The position numbers and the translations under genes are program-made. This document shows positions 19,102-45,535 of a stretch of DNA of 64,000 nucleotides, in pieces; the first letter of the stretch is position 1, and the number at the start of each line of letters is the position of its first letter. The notes under the pieces were generated by a model that had not been told where the DNA came from, made no database searches, and worked only from the letters and a program-made list of their open reading frames with translations. Source of the stretch: an uncultured Clostridia bacterium. GTDB taxonomy: Bacteria > Bacillota > Clostridia > Oscillospirales > Oscillospiraceae. The DNA lies in contig CANAZG010000002.1 in the NCBI GenBank assembly GCA_947365965.1, forward strand, positions 1 through 64,000, read 5' to 3'.

Positions 19102-19349
19102 GGCCGGCCCAGCATTTCCAGTGAAAGCAGCATCCCCATGCGCCAGCCCTCCCGGAACCACTCATAGTTGGAGCGGAAATATACGTCGTTCTCGCTGTTC
19201 TGGAGCTGGCTGATCTGCTCCTCTTCCAGAACCTGTCCGGCGGCGGTCCACAGCGCGTCCAGCCGCTTGCACAGCACACGGTATTCTGCGCTGGGGGTGT
19301 ATTCCTCCAGATGGCGGAGATAGATTTTTTCTAATATGCTATTTTCCAT
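19095..19349 (-). CDS. Hypothetical 84-aa protein (resembles small DUF6809-like helical proteins)
   Basis: MENSILEKIYLRHLEEYTPSAEYRVLCKRLDALWTAAGQVLEEEQISQLQNSENDVYFRSNYEWFREGWRMGMLLSLEMLGRPQ; strong promoter upstream; family assignment tentative. Confidence 0.7.
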   Translation of the reverse strand: MENSILEKIYLRHLEEYTPSAEYRVLCKRLDALWTAAGQVLEEEQISQLQNSENDVYFRSNYEWFREGWRMGMLLSLEMLGRPQ

Positions 19350-19381
19350 AGTTCATACCACCCCAAAAAGTTTACAAACAC

Positions 19382-19410
19382 ATTATAGCGCATATCAGTA
19401 TACTTGTCAA
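19382..19410 (-). promoter_or_regulatory. Sigma-A-type promoter for the 84-aa ORF
   Basis: On minus strand TTGACA-17 nt-TATAAT (exact consensus). Confidence 0.8.
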
Positions 19411-19440
19411 TGATAATTATATATACTTTTTAAAGGTATA

Positions 19441-19470
19441 TTGATTTTATCCACCTGCATTTGCTATAAT
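19441..19470 (+). promoter_or_regulatory. Sigma-A-type promoter for the XRE gene
   Basis: TTGATT-18 nt-TATAAT, 16 nt before the ATG at 19487. Confidence 0.65.
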
Positions 19471-19486
19471 AATCGCGAGAGGTGCC

Positions 19487-19843
19487 ATGATGAATACTCG
19501 CATACGAGAAATAAGACAGGCCCTTGCCATCAACCAAAGTGAATTTGGGGAGAAAATCGGCCTAAAGCAAAATGCAGTCAGCCTTATGGAAAAGCCGAAT
19601 GGCCGGATTAAGGAACAAAATATCATTGCCATTTGCACACAATTTCATGTGAATGAGGCCTGGCTGCGTACAGGCGAGGGAGAAATGTTTTCCTTAGAAG
19701 AACCATTAGAAGATCGTAAAAAAAAGAGACTTGTATCCCTATTTCAAAAATTAACCCCTCCCTTCCAGGACCGTCTCCTTTCGGATGCCGCCGGTCTGCT
19801 GAAACTGCAAACGCAGCTGTCTGAGACCAAAGAAGAATCCTAA
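19487..19843 (+). CDS. XRE-family helix-turn-helix transcriptional regulator
   Basis: MMNTRIREIRQALAINQSEFGEKIGLKQNAVSLMEKPNGRIKEQNIIAICTQFHVNEAWLRTGEGEMF. Confidence 0.88.
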   Translation: MMNTRIREIRQALAINQSEFGEKIGLKQNAVSLMEKPNGRIKEQNIIAICTQFHVNEAWLRTGEGEMFSLEEPLEDRKKKRLVSLFQKLTPPFQDRLLSDAAGLLKLQTQLSETKEES

Positions 19844-19864
19844 TTACCCGCAGAATCTATGTAG

Positions 19865-19937
19865 GGGCGAGCATCGCTCGCCCGCGTCTATCGAGGCGCT
19901 GGATGGTGCCGTCAGAGCGGGCGAGCGATGCTCGCCC
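19865..19937. repeat. Pair of inverted 19-bp palindromic repeats
   Basis: GGGCGAGCATCGCTCGCCC at 19865-19883 and its exact reverse complement GGGCGAGCGATGCTCGCCC at 19919-19937. Confidence 0.85.
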
Positions 19938-19972
19938 CCACACACGCTCTAACGGCACCCCCAGCTGGCCCG

Positions 19973-20064
19973 ATGGGAAATCGCCGCCGTAAGACTGCCG
20001 GCAGTCTATACCACCATCTCTAAAGTTCTTTTTGGTTACTTTTTCTTTCAAGAAAAAGTAACAA
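19973..20064. repeat. Dispersed hairpin element, copy C with extended left arm
   Basis: GGGAAATCGCCGCCGTAAGACTGCCGGCAGTCTATACCACCATCTCTAAAGTTCTTTTTGGTTACTTTTTCTTTCAAGAAAAAGTAAC. Confidence 0.85.
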
Positions 20065-22285: not shown

Positions 22286-22299
22286 GGAGCGTTTGTGGT

Positions 22300-22399
22300 C
22301 ATTCTTTTTTCTTTCCACACGCCGCCTGCGGCGGTTTAGCGGCATTGCCCGCTTCGCGGTCAACGCCCGGAAAAAAGAATCAAAAAAACTTTAGATGTG
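22300..22399. repeat. Dispersed hairpin element, copy D (inverted orientation, GC-rich insertion in loop)
   Basis: CATTCTTTTTTCTTTCC-[GC-rich palindromic loop]-GGAAAAAAGAATCAAAAAAACTTTAGATGTGG. Confidence 0.75.
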
Positions 22400-22481
22400 G
22401 TATAATAGCTGCTGGAGGTTCTTATTGGCACCAGAGAAAGTTGATAGACATGCGCGATTGATCGTCCTTGGCGGTGTTATA

Positions 22482-22501
22482 ACATGCGCAAATGCGCATG
22501 T
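22482..22501. promoter_or_regulatory. 20-bp palindrome, candidate operator for the XRE regulator
   Basis: ACATGCGCA-AA-TGCGCATGT, with a half-site ACATGCGC at 22448-22455. Confidence 0.6.
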
Positions 22502-22525
22502 CAACAGCACAGGGAGAATTTTGTT

Positions 22526-22744
22526 ATGTTTATTTTTGGGGAACACTTAAAGAAGCTGAGAAAATCCCGAAATTTAACGCAAAAGCAGCTGGCGGAGGGC
22601 ATCGGGTCCAGTGAGCGAGGGATCCAGCAATATGAGCTGGGGGAGCGAAAGCCCACCTACGACAAGCTGATTGCCCTGGCGGACTACTTCGACATCTCTA
22701 TCGATTATCTCGTGGGCCGGTCCGACGATCCGGCGCGGCATTGA
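22526..22744 (+). CDS. XRE-family helix-turn-helix transcriptional regulator
   Basis: MFIFGEHLKKLRKSRNLTQKQLAEGIGSSERGIQQYELGERKPTYDKLIALADYFDISIDYLVGRSDDPARH. Confidence 0.92.
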   Translation: MFIFGEHLKKLRKSRNLTQKQLAEGIGSSERGIQQYELGERKPTYDKLIALADYFDISIDYLVGRSDDPARH

Positions 22745-22794
22745 ATAAAAACCTGATATATGTTTTCCAGGCTGCTGGCTCGACTTATGGTACC

Positions 22795-22890
22795 ATGGAA
22801 ACCTACCGCCATAGGACGCCAGCAGCTTGATTGACGCCTCTAAAGTTTTTCTTTTTGATACTTTTTCTTTGTACACAAAGAAAAAGTATG
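22795..22890. repeat. Dispersed hairpin element, copy E with extended left arm
   Basis: GGAAACCTACCGCCATAGGACGCCAGCAGCTTGATTGACGCCTCTAAAGTTTTTCTTTTTGATACTTTTTCTTTGTACACAAAGAAAAAGTATG. Confidence 0.85.
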
Positions 22891-22918
22891 ATTACCCCGA
22901 CGAAGGAGATTTTGGCCT

Positions 22919-36256: not shown

Positions 36257-36337
36257 TAAAACCTTCCAACGCTTTTCTTTTGCTTCTTTTCCGGCAGGCC
36301 CGCCGGGGGCGGCGCCTGTTCACAGAGAAAAGAGGAG
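36257..36337. repeat. Degenerate copy of dispersed hairpin element (I), GC-rich loop insertion
   Basis: ACCTTCCAACGCTTTTCTTTTGCTTCTTTT-[GC-rich]-TGTTCACAGAGAAAAGAGG; resembles reverse complement of copy B. Confidence 0.45.
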
Positions 36338-36363
36338 AATCACAAAGGAGACAAGGCACATCT

Positions 36364-41803: not shown

Positions 41804-42304
41804 ATGCAGGTGGAATTGACAGCGGTTCTCCCGGTGGAGAAGGAGACGCTCCGTAATTTACTGGAAAAATACAACTATGAGTTTTCGCAATATGATCTCA
41901 TCCCCTTCAACGAGGAGGGGCTGTACGGATACCGCTACCTGGACAGCTATTTCACCCAGCCGGACCGGGCGGCCTGGTTTATCCGGGCGGACCGGCATCT
42001 GGCGGGGTTTGTGCTGGTAAACCGCCACCCGGACTGCGGACGGCCCCTGGACTGGGCGGTGGCGGAGTTCTTCGTGGCCTACCCCTTCCGCCGCCGGGGG
42101 GTGGGCAGCGCGGCCATGGCGGAGATCTTCCGCCGGTTCAAGGGGAACTGGCAGATCAAGTACCACCCCCGCAACGAGGCCAGCGCCGCTTTCTGGCAGG
42201 CCGTGGCGGAGCGCGCCGCCGCCGGGGCGGTGGGGAACGTCTCGGGGGACAGCCCCTACCAGGACGGCTCGGAGGCCAGGGTGCTGTGCTTTTGCGTGGA
42301 ATAG
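41804..42304 (+). CDS. GNAT-family N-acetyltransferase
   Basis: EFFVAYPFRRRGVGSAAMAEIFRRFKGNWQIKYHPRNEASAAFWQAV. Confidence 0.87.
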   Translation: MQVELTAVLPVEKETLRNLLEKYNYEFSQYDLIPFNEEGLYGYRYLDSYFTQPDRAAWFIRADRHLAGFVLVNRHPDCGRPLDWAVAEFFVAYPFRRRGVGSAAMAEIFRRFKGNWQIKYHPRNEASAAFWQAVAERAAAGAVGNVSGDSPYQDGSEARVLCFCVE

Positions 42305-42305
42305 C

Positions 42306-42361
42306 GTTCTTTTTCTTTGTGAACAAAGAAAAAGAACCAAAAAGAAAAACTTTAGAGGTGG
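42306..42361. repeat. Dispersed hairpin element, copy F (inverted orientation)
   Basis: GTTCTTTTTCTTTGTGAACAAAGAAAAAGAAC + CAAAAAGAAAAACTTTAGAGGTGG; starts directly after the GNAT stop codon. Confidence 0.9.
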
Positions 42362-42366
42362 TATTC

Positions 42367-43002
42367 TTGGAGCTTGTCCTTTCCAGCGCGACAACAGCGG
42401 CGGTCAATCTGATCGTATTTTCATTTCTGCCGGTTCTCTGGTGGTTTTTCAGGCACAGAAGAGAGGGCGGGTTTTTGAAATGGATCGGCTTCTTTCGGCC
42501 GCAATTAAAAAGCAGCTGGCAGATACTGCTGTTGTTTGCTGTTTTGTATGCCTTCTTTTATAATTTTGATTTCACGCAGCTTGTGGATCCCCAGACCCTG
42601 GCGTACATAGAAAGCAGCGCCTCCGTATCCGCCAACGCCTTTGCGGGGCTGGGCGCGGCGGCTGTTCTGCCGGCCCTCATTGAAAATTTTATCGCCAACG
42701 GCGTGGCGGAGGAAATTCTATACAGAGGGTTTCTGTGCAAGAGATTATGCGGAAAAACCGGCATTGTGGGAGGAATTATTTTACAGGCTGTTTTGTTTGG
42801 CCTGATGCACAACATACTGTATATAGCGGCAGGACTGGATGTGGGGCTGTGGTATCACACCTTAACCTTTCTCTTCACGGGAACAGGCGCGTTATTATTG
42901 GGGTGGCTGAACGAAAAAATCTTCAATGGTTCCATAATCCCCAGCATTCTGCTGCATGGCGGCGGAAATTTTCTCGCATCCATGCTGATTGCTTTTGCCT
43001 AA
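42367..43002 (+). CDS. CPBP-family intramembrane metalloprotease
   Basis: NFIANGVAEEILYRGFLCKRL (EExxxR), FGLMHNILYI; TTG start 42367 with AGAGGTGG upstream inside repeat F (start uncertain). Confidence 0.86.
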   Translation: MELVLSSATTAAVNLIVFSFLPVLWWFFRHRREGGFLKWIGFFRPQLKSSWQILLLFAVLYAFFYNFDFTQLVDPQTLAYIESSASVSANAFAGLGAAAVLPALIENFIANGVAEEILYRGFLCKRLCGKTGIVGGIILQAVLFGLMHNILYIAAGLDVGLWYHTLTFLFTGTGALLLGWLNEKIFNGSIIPSILLHGGGNFLASMLIAFA

Positions 43003-43036
43003 AACAACTTTATGAACAATAAAAAAGCCTTAGAGG

Positions 43037-43119
43037 CGGAATCATAAGACTGCCGGCAGCTGCGGCATACAGCCTCTAAAAGTTCTTTTTGATTCTTTTT
43101 CTTTCAAGAAAAAGAATGG
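43037..43119. repeat. Dispersed hairpin element, copy G with extended left arm
   Basis: GCGGAATCATAAGACTGCCGGCAGCTGCGGCATACAGCCTCTAAAAGTTCTTTTTGATTCTTTTTCTTTCAAGAAAAAGAATGG. Confidence 0.88.
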
Positions 43120-43150
43120 ATACTGAATAGTACATCTGGAGTATTGATTT

Positions 43151-45535
43151 ATGAGCGAACTATTTGATAAATCCATTCGCACCCTGGAGCTGCCAGCGGT
43201 CCTGCGGATGCTGGCGGACCAGACCAACTGCGCCGCGGCCCGGGAGAAGGCCCTGGCCCTGGTCCCCCAGACGGACGTGGACGACGTGAAGCGTCTCCAG
43301 GACGAGACGGACGCGGCCCGGGACATGATCGGGCTGAAGGGCTCCCCGCCCTTCTCGGGCATCAAGCCCGTGGCGGAGAGCCTCTACCGGGCGGACCACG
43401 GCGGCGCCCTGAACACCCGGGAGCTGCTGGACATCGCCGGGGTGCTCCGCTGCGCCCGGCGGGTGGGGGACTACCCGGGGGATCAGGAGAAGAAGTCCGC
43501 CATTGACGTTCTCTTCTCCGCCCTGCGGGGGAATCGATTCCTGGAGGAGCGGATCTTCTCCGCCATCCTGGAGGAGGACGTAATCGCCGACACCGCCAGC
43601 CCCGCCCTGGCGGACATCCGCCGCCACATGCGGGTGGCGGCCGCCAAGGGCCGGCAGATACTGCAAAAGATCATCTCCTCCCAGAGCTACGGCAAGGTCC
43701 TCCAGGAGGCCATCATCACCCAGCGGGACGGCCGGTTCGTGGTGCCGGTGAAAGCGGAGTTCCGCTCCAGCCTCCCGGGGCTGGTCCACGATGTCAGCTC
43801 CAGCGGCGCCACCATCTTCGTGGAGCCCATGGGCGTGGTCCAGGCCAACAACGAGCTCAAGGAGCTGGAGGCCAAGGAGAAAAAGGAGATCGAGCGCATC
43901 CTTCGGGAGCTGTCCGCCCAGGCGGCGGGCTGCTGCGGCGACATCCTCTCGGACTACGATCTGCTGGTGGGCCTGGATCTCATCTTCGCCCGGGGCCAGC
44001 TCAGCTATCAGATGAACGCCAGCCGGCCGGAGATCCGGCGCAACGGCAGCATCAGCCTCCGCCACGCCCGCCACCCCCTGCTGGACACGGGCCGTGCCGT
44101 GCCCATCTCCGTTGAGCTGGGCCAGCGGTTCGACACCCTGGTCATCACCGGGCCCAACACCGGCGGCAAGACCGTGAGCCTGAAGACCCTGGGCCTTTTG
44201 ACCCTCATGGCCCAGTGCGGGCTCCACATCCCCGCCGACGACCGCAGCGCGGTGAGCGTATTCGACCGGGTGCTGGCGGATATCGGCGACGAGCAGAGCA
44301 TTGAGCAGAGCCTGTCCACCTTCTCCGCCCACATGATGAACATCGTGAAGATTCTGGAGGAGGCGGACAGCCACAGCCTCATCCTCTTTGACGAGCTGGG
44401 GGCGGGCACGGACCCGGTGGAGGGCGCGGCCCTGGCCATTGCCATCATCCAGCACGTCCGGGACCGGGGGGCCAGAGTGGCCGCCACCACCCACTACGCG
44501 GAGCTGAAGACCTTCGCCATGACCACCGAGGGGGTGGAGAACGCCAGCTGTGAGTTCGACGTGGAGACCCTGCGGCCCACCTACAAGCTCCTCATCGGCA
44601 TCCCCGGCAAGTCCAACGCCTTCGCCATCTCCCGGCGGCTGGGCCTGGATCCGGCGGTGATCGAGACCGCCAAGGCCCAGATGGACAGCGAGTCCGTCCG
44701 GTTTGAGGACGTGCTCACCCAGCTGGAGGAGAAGCGCCAGCGGCTGGAGAAGGACCAGGGCGAGGCCGAGCGCCTGCGGGCGGTCCGGGAGGAGGACGCC
44801 CGGCGGGCCAGGGAGTTCCGGGAGCAGATGGAGCGGGCCAAGGAGAACGCCCGCACCCGGGGCGAGGCCGAGGCCCGGCGCATCGTCCGGGAGGCCCGGG
44901 CCCAGGCGGACGCCATCTTTGAGGAGCTCAGCCAGCTGCGCCGGGAGCAGGAGAAGGCGGTCAGCTGGCAGAACGTCAACGACGCCCGCTCCGCCATCCG
45001 GGGCAGGCTGAACCAGATGGAGGAGGAGCTCCACTTTGAGGCGGAGCGGGAGCCCATCCCCGCCCCCAGCCGCCCCATCCGGGCCGGAGACCTGGTGGAG
45101 CTGGGGGGCACCCGGAAGCAGGCCGTGGTTGCGGCGGTGAACGGGGAGAAGCTGACCCTGACGGCGGGGAACATGAAGCTGACCGTCAAGGCCGGGGAGG
45201 TCCGGCTGGTGGAGGAGGCCGAGGTCCGGGAGAAGAAGGAGGCCAAGCGGCAGGTGGCCACAGCGGTCCGGCTCCAGGGGGCCCGGGCGGCCATCAGCGA
45301 GCTGGATATCCGGGGGCTGATGACTGACGAGGCGGATCTGGCGGTGGACCGATTCCTGGACAACGCGGTCATGGGCAAGCTCAACGTGGTGACCATCATC
45401 CACGGCAAGGGCACCGGCGCGCTGCGCAAGGCCGTCCACCAGCAGCTCAAGCGCCACCCGTCCGTGAAGAACTACCGCCTGGGCCGCTACGGCGAGGGCG
45501 AGGACGGCGTGACGGTGGTGGAGCTGCGGCAGTAG
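43151..45535 (+). CDS. mutS2: Endonuclease MutS2
   Basis: 794 aa; TGPNTGGKTVSLKTLGLLTLMAQCGLHIPA, FDELGAGTDPVEGAALA, C-terminal Smr domain IHGKGTGALRKAVHQQLKRH. Confidence 0.97.
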   Translation: MSELFDKSIRTLELPAVLRMLADQTNCAAAREKALALVPQTDVDDVKRLQDETDAARDMIGLKGSPPFSGIKPVAESLYRADHGGALNTRELLDIAGVLRCARRVGDYPGDQEKKSAIDVLFSALRGNRFLEERIFSAILEEDVIADTASPALADIRRHMRVAAAKGRQILQKIISSQSYGKVLQEAIITQRDGRFVVPVKAEFRSSLPGLVHDVSSSGATIFVEPMGVVQANNELKELEAKEKKEIERILRELSAQAAGCCGDILSDYDLLVGLDLIFARGQLSYQMNASRPEIRRNGSISLRHARHPLLDTGRAVPISVELGQRFDTLVITGPNTGGKTVSLKTLGLLTLMAQCGLHIPADDRSAVSVFDRVLADIGDEQSIEQSLSTFSAHMMNIVKILEEADSHSLILFDELGAGTDPVEGAALAIAIIQHVRDRGARVAATTHYAELKTFAMTTEGVENASCEFDVETLRPTYKLLIGIPGKSNAFAISRRLGLDPAVIETAKAQMDSESVRFEDVLTQLEEKRQRLEKDQGEAERLRAVREEDARRAREFREQMERAKENARTRGEAEARRIVREARAQADAIFEELSQLRREQEKAVSWQNVNDARSAIRGRLNQMEEELHFEAEREPIPAPSRPIRAGDLVELGGTRKQAVVAAVNGEKLTLTAGNMKLTVKAGEVRLVEEAEVREKKEAKRQVATAVRLQGARAAISELDIRGLMTDEADLAVDRFLDNAVMGKLNVVTIIHGKGTGALRKAVHQQLKRHPSVKNYRLGRYGEGEDGVTVVELRQ

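Follow-up and report, generated by a model that had tools for sequence, protein, structure and literature searches.

A CPBP protease gene of evidently foreign origin between facing hairpin repeat ends next to mutS2 in an uncultured Clostridia bacterium

Organization of the GNAT-mutS2 interval

Within the window (the whole 64,000-nt stretch of DNA that was analyzed, from a 3.39 Mb MAG referred to here as G000), a GNAT acetyltransferase gene (41804-42304, + strand; Pfam PF00583, 8.7e-9) ends in a stop codon at 42302-42304. One base separates this codon from a left-type hairpin, F (42306-42337, +), a perfect 32-nt inverted repeat with the loop GTGAAC, in agreement with an earlier note on this DNA, which had F begin within 2 nt of the upstream stop. 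The F arm, CAAAAAGAAAAACTTTAGAGG, follows at 42338-42358 (+), and the match to the left-end CM spans 42302-42358 at 82.6 bits. A gene for a 211-aa CPBP (Rce1-like) intramembrane protease occupies 42367-43002 (+). Behind it lie a decayed second left end, consisting of half a hairpin and an arm (43008-43036, +; at 11.1 bits and E=0.014 in 201 bases, a weak CM score), and a core (43037-43072, +) whose palindrome CTGCCGGCAG (43050-43059) is common to the cores of complete elements. These are followed by the right-type end G, made up of an arm (43073-43091, -; CCTCTAAAAGTTCTTTTTG on the + strand) that is U-rich when read outwards, a hairpin (43092-43117, -) and an outer terminus GGATACT (43118-43124, -) that resembles the AGTAATCAT-type outer repeat of this genome; no outer terminal repeat is present at F. 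The right-end CM match covers 43074-43120 at 69.8 bits, and the native neighbor mutS2 (43151-45535, +) lies beyond.

G faces F, and CPBP is the sole gene between them; the inverted copies around a single CPBP gene described in the earlier note were confirmed by sequence and by both CM scores. Judged from its parts, G probably represents a short element that is almost complete, and not a solo end only. Since the 37-nt arm gap between the decayed left end and G falls within the short size class of the family (see below), that decayed left end is probably G's own partner, in which case CPBP stands between two directly repeated left ends. The inner flanks of F and G do not match, and F ranks only 39th of 47 left ends as a partner for G, so that inner complementarity gives no support to a single element with F and G as its two arms. 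Scans found no promoter-like site in the F-CPBP-G region and no terminator at G or at the ends generally.

Foreign origin of the CPBP gene and its start signals

Assignment of the protease rests on PF02517 (1.5e-14; 54.5 bits against a cut-off of 22.4) and on the EExxxR and FxxxH motifs in its translation, present as EEILYR and FGLMH. The gene is AT-richer than its GC-rich surroundings, as the earlier note had stated, with 49% GC and a GC3 of 0.59 versus 0.90±0.035 for window genes. Its nearest homologues share 80% (another genus) and 76% (another family) protein identity, and same-genus homologues reach 30-35% identity at most and lie at other loci. DNA similarity to the nearest homologues is limited to the gene itself, and no hairpin repeats were found around the homologues in other genera. 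By composition and homologue spread, CPBP is clearly a horizontally acquired gene. As its source, phage or plasmid was considered and rejected, with no phage match and only a 40% plasmid match.

In an alignment, the TTG start of CPBP at 42367 lies opposite the ATG of its nearest homologue (L132), and the sequence AGAGG (42354-42358) in the F arm lies 8 nt ahead of it. Where the leader of the homologue has GGAGG, the arm's AGAGGTGG takes that place in CPBP. GAGGTG at 42355-42360 is likely the Shine-Dalgarno of CPBP; because AGAGG is placed 8 nt from a homologue-checked start, F would by its position provide this signal, which makes plausible the earlier suggestion that the repeat supplies translation signals.

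A genus-specific family of hairpin repeats

Copies were searched with separate CM models for left-type and right-type ends, which yielded 117 repeat ends in G000 (62 left and 55 right). The arm pattern gave 31 matches versus 2 in a reversed-sequence control, and covariation in the right-end hairpin was pronounced, with pairing in 98.6% of cells and 15 double changes, compared with 3.9±2.0 after shuffling. The family was found in 20 of the 24 same-genus genomes searched and in none of 12 other Oscillospiraceae genera searched; one more distant genome gave 8 weak matches. The hairpin repeat family is genus-specific. All of its matches in Rfam were far below the gathering score, an exact-pattern scan of viral contigs returned no copies, and we found nothing specific in the literature on such repeats in Oscillospiraceae.

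The complete element measures about 130-170 bp and consists of a left hairpin, an arm, a core palindrome, a second arm and a right hairpin. Close facing pairs number 22 in G000 (21 of them left plus right) and 24 in G015, a genome of another species; across the two genomes, 44 of 46 combine one left-type with one right-type hairpin. Arm-to-arm gaps in the G000 close pairs range from 21 to 75 nt and fall into two size classes. The outer termini carry repeats of 9-10 nt that are conserved inside each genome. When an outside gene reads towards an end, its stop codon lies a median of 12-19 nt from the hairpin edge, and about half of the ends adjoin their outside gene at its 5' side.

Each genome has uniform outer terminal repeats and cores, which are species-specific (AGTAATCAT in G000 versus AGGCATACAT in G015), a pattern that resembles concerted evolution of the family.

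Use of the recO-mutS2 junction in related genomes

The earlier note had proposed to look in relatives for an empty site or a different cargo at this place, and this is what we found. CPBP lies between recO and mutS2 in none of the 22 same-genus genomes that have a mutS2 locus; their recO-mutS2 gap either is short or contains other genes. GNAT is also absent from this junction in the same-genus genomes examined; because it is likewise unique here, CPBP may have arrived with other DNA. The junction is an insertion hot spot that carries varying extra genes across the genus, mostly without the repeat.

A family end lies just upstream of mutS2 in G000, G013 and G015, at about 21-31 nt (about 21-27 nt in G013 and G015). 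The mutS2-proximal ends of G013 and G015, which are two other species, have G's direction and occur without CPBP. For 14 distinct G000 element sites an alignment to G015 was possible, and at 6 of them G015 has an element as well. At these shared sites the outer repeats and cores are genome-specific, and the left/right order is reversed in 2 of the 3 complete cases compared. Together, the 6 of 14 shared sites and the mutS2-proximal ends in G013 and G015 indicate that ends are retained at the same intergenic positions or come back to them.

Polarity of the repeat ends towards foreign DNA

Other loci with inverted ends around small foreign genes, which the earlier note had proposed to look for, do exist (XRE, RibD and DUF6809). 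All five facing pairs that are 250-1300 bp apart in G000 enclose DNA of 49-52% GC, with cargoes of an XRE gene; CPBP; XRE and DUF6809; two XRE and small genes; and RibD and small genes. The single such pair in G015 encloses 55% GC. Thus 6 of 6 facing pairs in the two genomes enclose DNA at or below 55% GC, versus 0 of 11 pairs in other orientations less than 1.6 kb apart (59-73% GC). One of the six pairs had been spotted by eye and another (F-G) had prompted the test, and after removal of both the counts are 4/4 and 0/11 (hypergeometric, about 7e-4). Of the six enclosing pairs, three are right plus right.

The same polarity is seen at solo ends. At 200-700 nt beyond solo ends in G000, DNA on the arm side has a higher AT content than DNA on the hairpin side (p=0.0017), and flanks of at most 54% GC occur on the arm side at 13/54 ends versus 1/54 on the hairpin side; the solo-end set includes islet ends, so that in G000 this test overlaps with that of enclosed GC. 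Solo ends in G015 likewise have an AT-richer arm side (p=1e-6; at most 54% GC, 6/96 versus 0/96). Complete elements show no GC asymmetry between their sides. With few islets known per genome, facing ends repeatedly enclose foreign DNA in two genomes, and this is not a chance pattern. It points to a role of the repeats as landing pads or borders of acquired genes.

Comparison with known systems

MICs are defined as inverted repeats around one gene, with no transposase inside and usually with a target duplication (PMC3913671). The present locus resembles the MIC231 type in that F and G are inverted around CPBP only and no transposase lies inside. It differs by the lack of a target duplication (usual but not obligatory in MICs), by the lack of a cognate transposase in a search for Y1, and by ends that are hairpins, one of them duplicated, with many copies free of cargo. 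The 130-170 bp form is short, multi-copy and intergenic, with terminal inverted repeats and no coding capacity, as in MITEs; however, we found neither a target duplication nor a parent insertion sequence, the left and right ends are unlike each other, and each has a hairpin of its own.

Inverted hairpin pairs with short spacers in size classes, together with single units, genome-wide and intergenic, are also features of REPIN/BIME families with their RAYTs. In contrast to those, a Y1 transposase is missing here from most element-rich genomes and is not beside the ends, and the ends enclose foreign genes, which is not known for REPINs. Small promoterless foreign genes beside palindromic sites recall integron gene cassettes, a resemblance only, and the core palindromes here vary between elements.

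How CPBP may have come to lie between the repeat ends

The earlier note had read the locus as a one-gene cassette with terminal inverted repeats. The foreign gene and the facing ends of that reading stand; a mobile unit with F and G as its ends is not supported. If F and G were the ends of a MIC-like non-autonomous transposon that carries CPBP as a unit, with a transposase acting in trans, left and right ends facing each other, outer repeats conserved within each genome and foreign DNA of differing cargo at several loci would all be expected. Yet F has no outer repeat, G has its own decayed left end, the inner flanks are unmatched, half of the enclosing pairs are right plus right, the CPBP homologues are not flanked by the repeat and a related end occurs beside mutS2 elsewhere without CPBP. 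Target duplications, which the earlier note had proposed to look for, were not found: no direct repeat was present at matching offsets, and observed values equaled shuffled ones over 43 pairs. Y1_Tnp, the only transposase family searched, has one copy in G000 (77% complete), not near an end and thus not linked to the repeats, and none was found in the element-rich G015 or in G013 and G001. A RAYT/Y1 mobilizer was rejected on these grounds, as most element-rich relatives lack Y1 and it was in no case close to an end, and we regard transposition of the cassette as a unit as unlikely.

It is similarly doubtful that F and G are chance neighbors, that is, two independent repeat insertions around a foreign gene at a recombination-prone junction. 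The different genes that several relatives carry at this junction, mostly without repeats, would agree with such a history, as would a G that is nearly complete alone and an inner flank of F that does not pair with G's; the 6/6 versus 0/11 enclosure of foreign DNA and a solo-end polarity that is strong in two genomes and absent at complete elements speak against it. Hairpins selected as directional terminators at foreign-gene borders, against read-through into native genes, would explain the arms that are U-rich outwards and the short distance from the stop codons of outside genes. This insulator role is nevertheless improbable, given the negative terminator scan at the ends, the fact that roughly half of the ends border the outside gene on its 5' side and the orientation of F towards the 5' end of CPBP, a place that requires no outward stop.

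The decayed left end, the missing outer repeat at F, the unmatched inner flanks, the lack of target duplication, the right plus right pairs and the mostly missing Y1 lead us to favor, with about even confidence, a history in which CPBP was acquired within or next to a resident hairpin element over one in which a unit transposed. The family consists of short hairpin elements that occupy intergenic sites just after native stop codons, and foreign DNA gathers on their inner side. CPBP would have come to lie with the left end F on one side and, on the other, a resident element that adjoins mutS2 and ends in G, giving the order F, CPBP, decayed left end, core and G; the gene may have entered through recombination at the hairpin or when a break there was repaired, and the order of events at the GNAT-mutS2 junction is our reconstruction. 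The F arm would give CPBP its Shine-Dalgarno and may let the upstream recO-GNAT operon read CPBP, and the outward U-rich arm of G may stop transcription ahead of mutS2.

Direct repeats of element parts flank both CPBP (F and the decayed left end) and RibD (the core). Splitting of one left-right element by the incoming gene leaves the three right plus right pairs among six unexplained, a point against the favored reading. A tentative extension of the favored acquisition reading, which we put forward with considerable doubt, is a reusable landing pad in which single foreign genes integrate inside the element and leave direct repeats of element parts, with the arms as borders that contribute signals for translation and termination; such a pad would be an analogue of gene cassettes that needs no transposase. 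If acquisition at resident elements is correct, short hairpin repeats that are usually deemed inert or selfish mark sites of foreign-gene uptake and expression behind housekeeping operons in gut bacteria. End polarity would then offer a simple way of cataloging acquired genes across a large genus that is mostly uncultured, and would make their entry route testable.

Further islets

A second islet in the window (22298-22893; 49.9% GC inside) holds an XRE-type HTH gene between a right-type end and a left-type end. Its right-type end carries a GC-rich hairpin insert in the loop, and an 8-nt direct repeat, GCTGCTGG, lies on both sides of the gene insert. An end-like hairpin at 36263-36339 has a long GC-rich loop insert like that at 22298. 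The AT-rich islet at 19113-20064 contains a DUF6809-like gene and an XRE gene (19487-19843), together with a single right-type end (20017) that points inward and has no facing partner. XRE plus DUF6809 as an autonomous unit was rejected, with ends at just 2 of 30 DUF6809 loci in the genus. A different repeat, an inverted pair of TGTAGGGGCGAGCATCGCTCGCCC, lies at 19860-19942 within this islet, and a similar copy is present in the G000 islet at C7:29127-30024.

Elsewhere in G000, at C9:16340-17643 (L143, 1841-3144), a RibD-domain gene lies between two right-type ends and has a core hairpin on either side, the two being nearly identical; no other gene shows direct core repeats around it as clearly. 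In L142 and L144, tandem duplicates of small regulators, namely two XRE genes and two ribbon-helix-helix-like genes, lie inside or beside islets.
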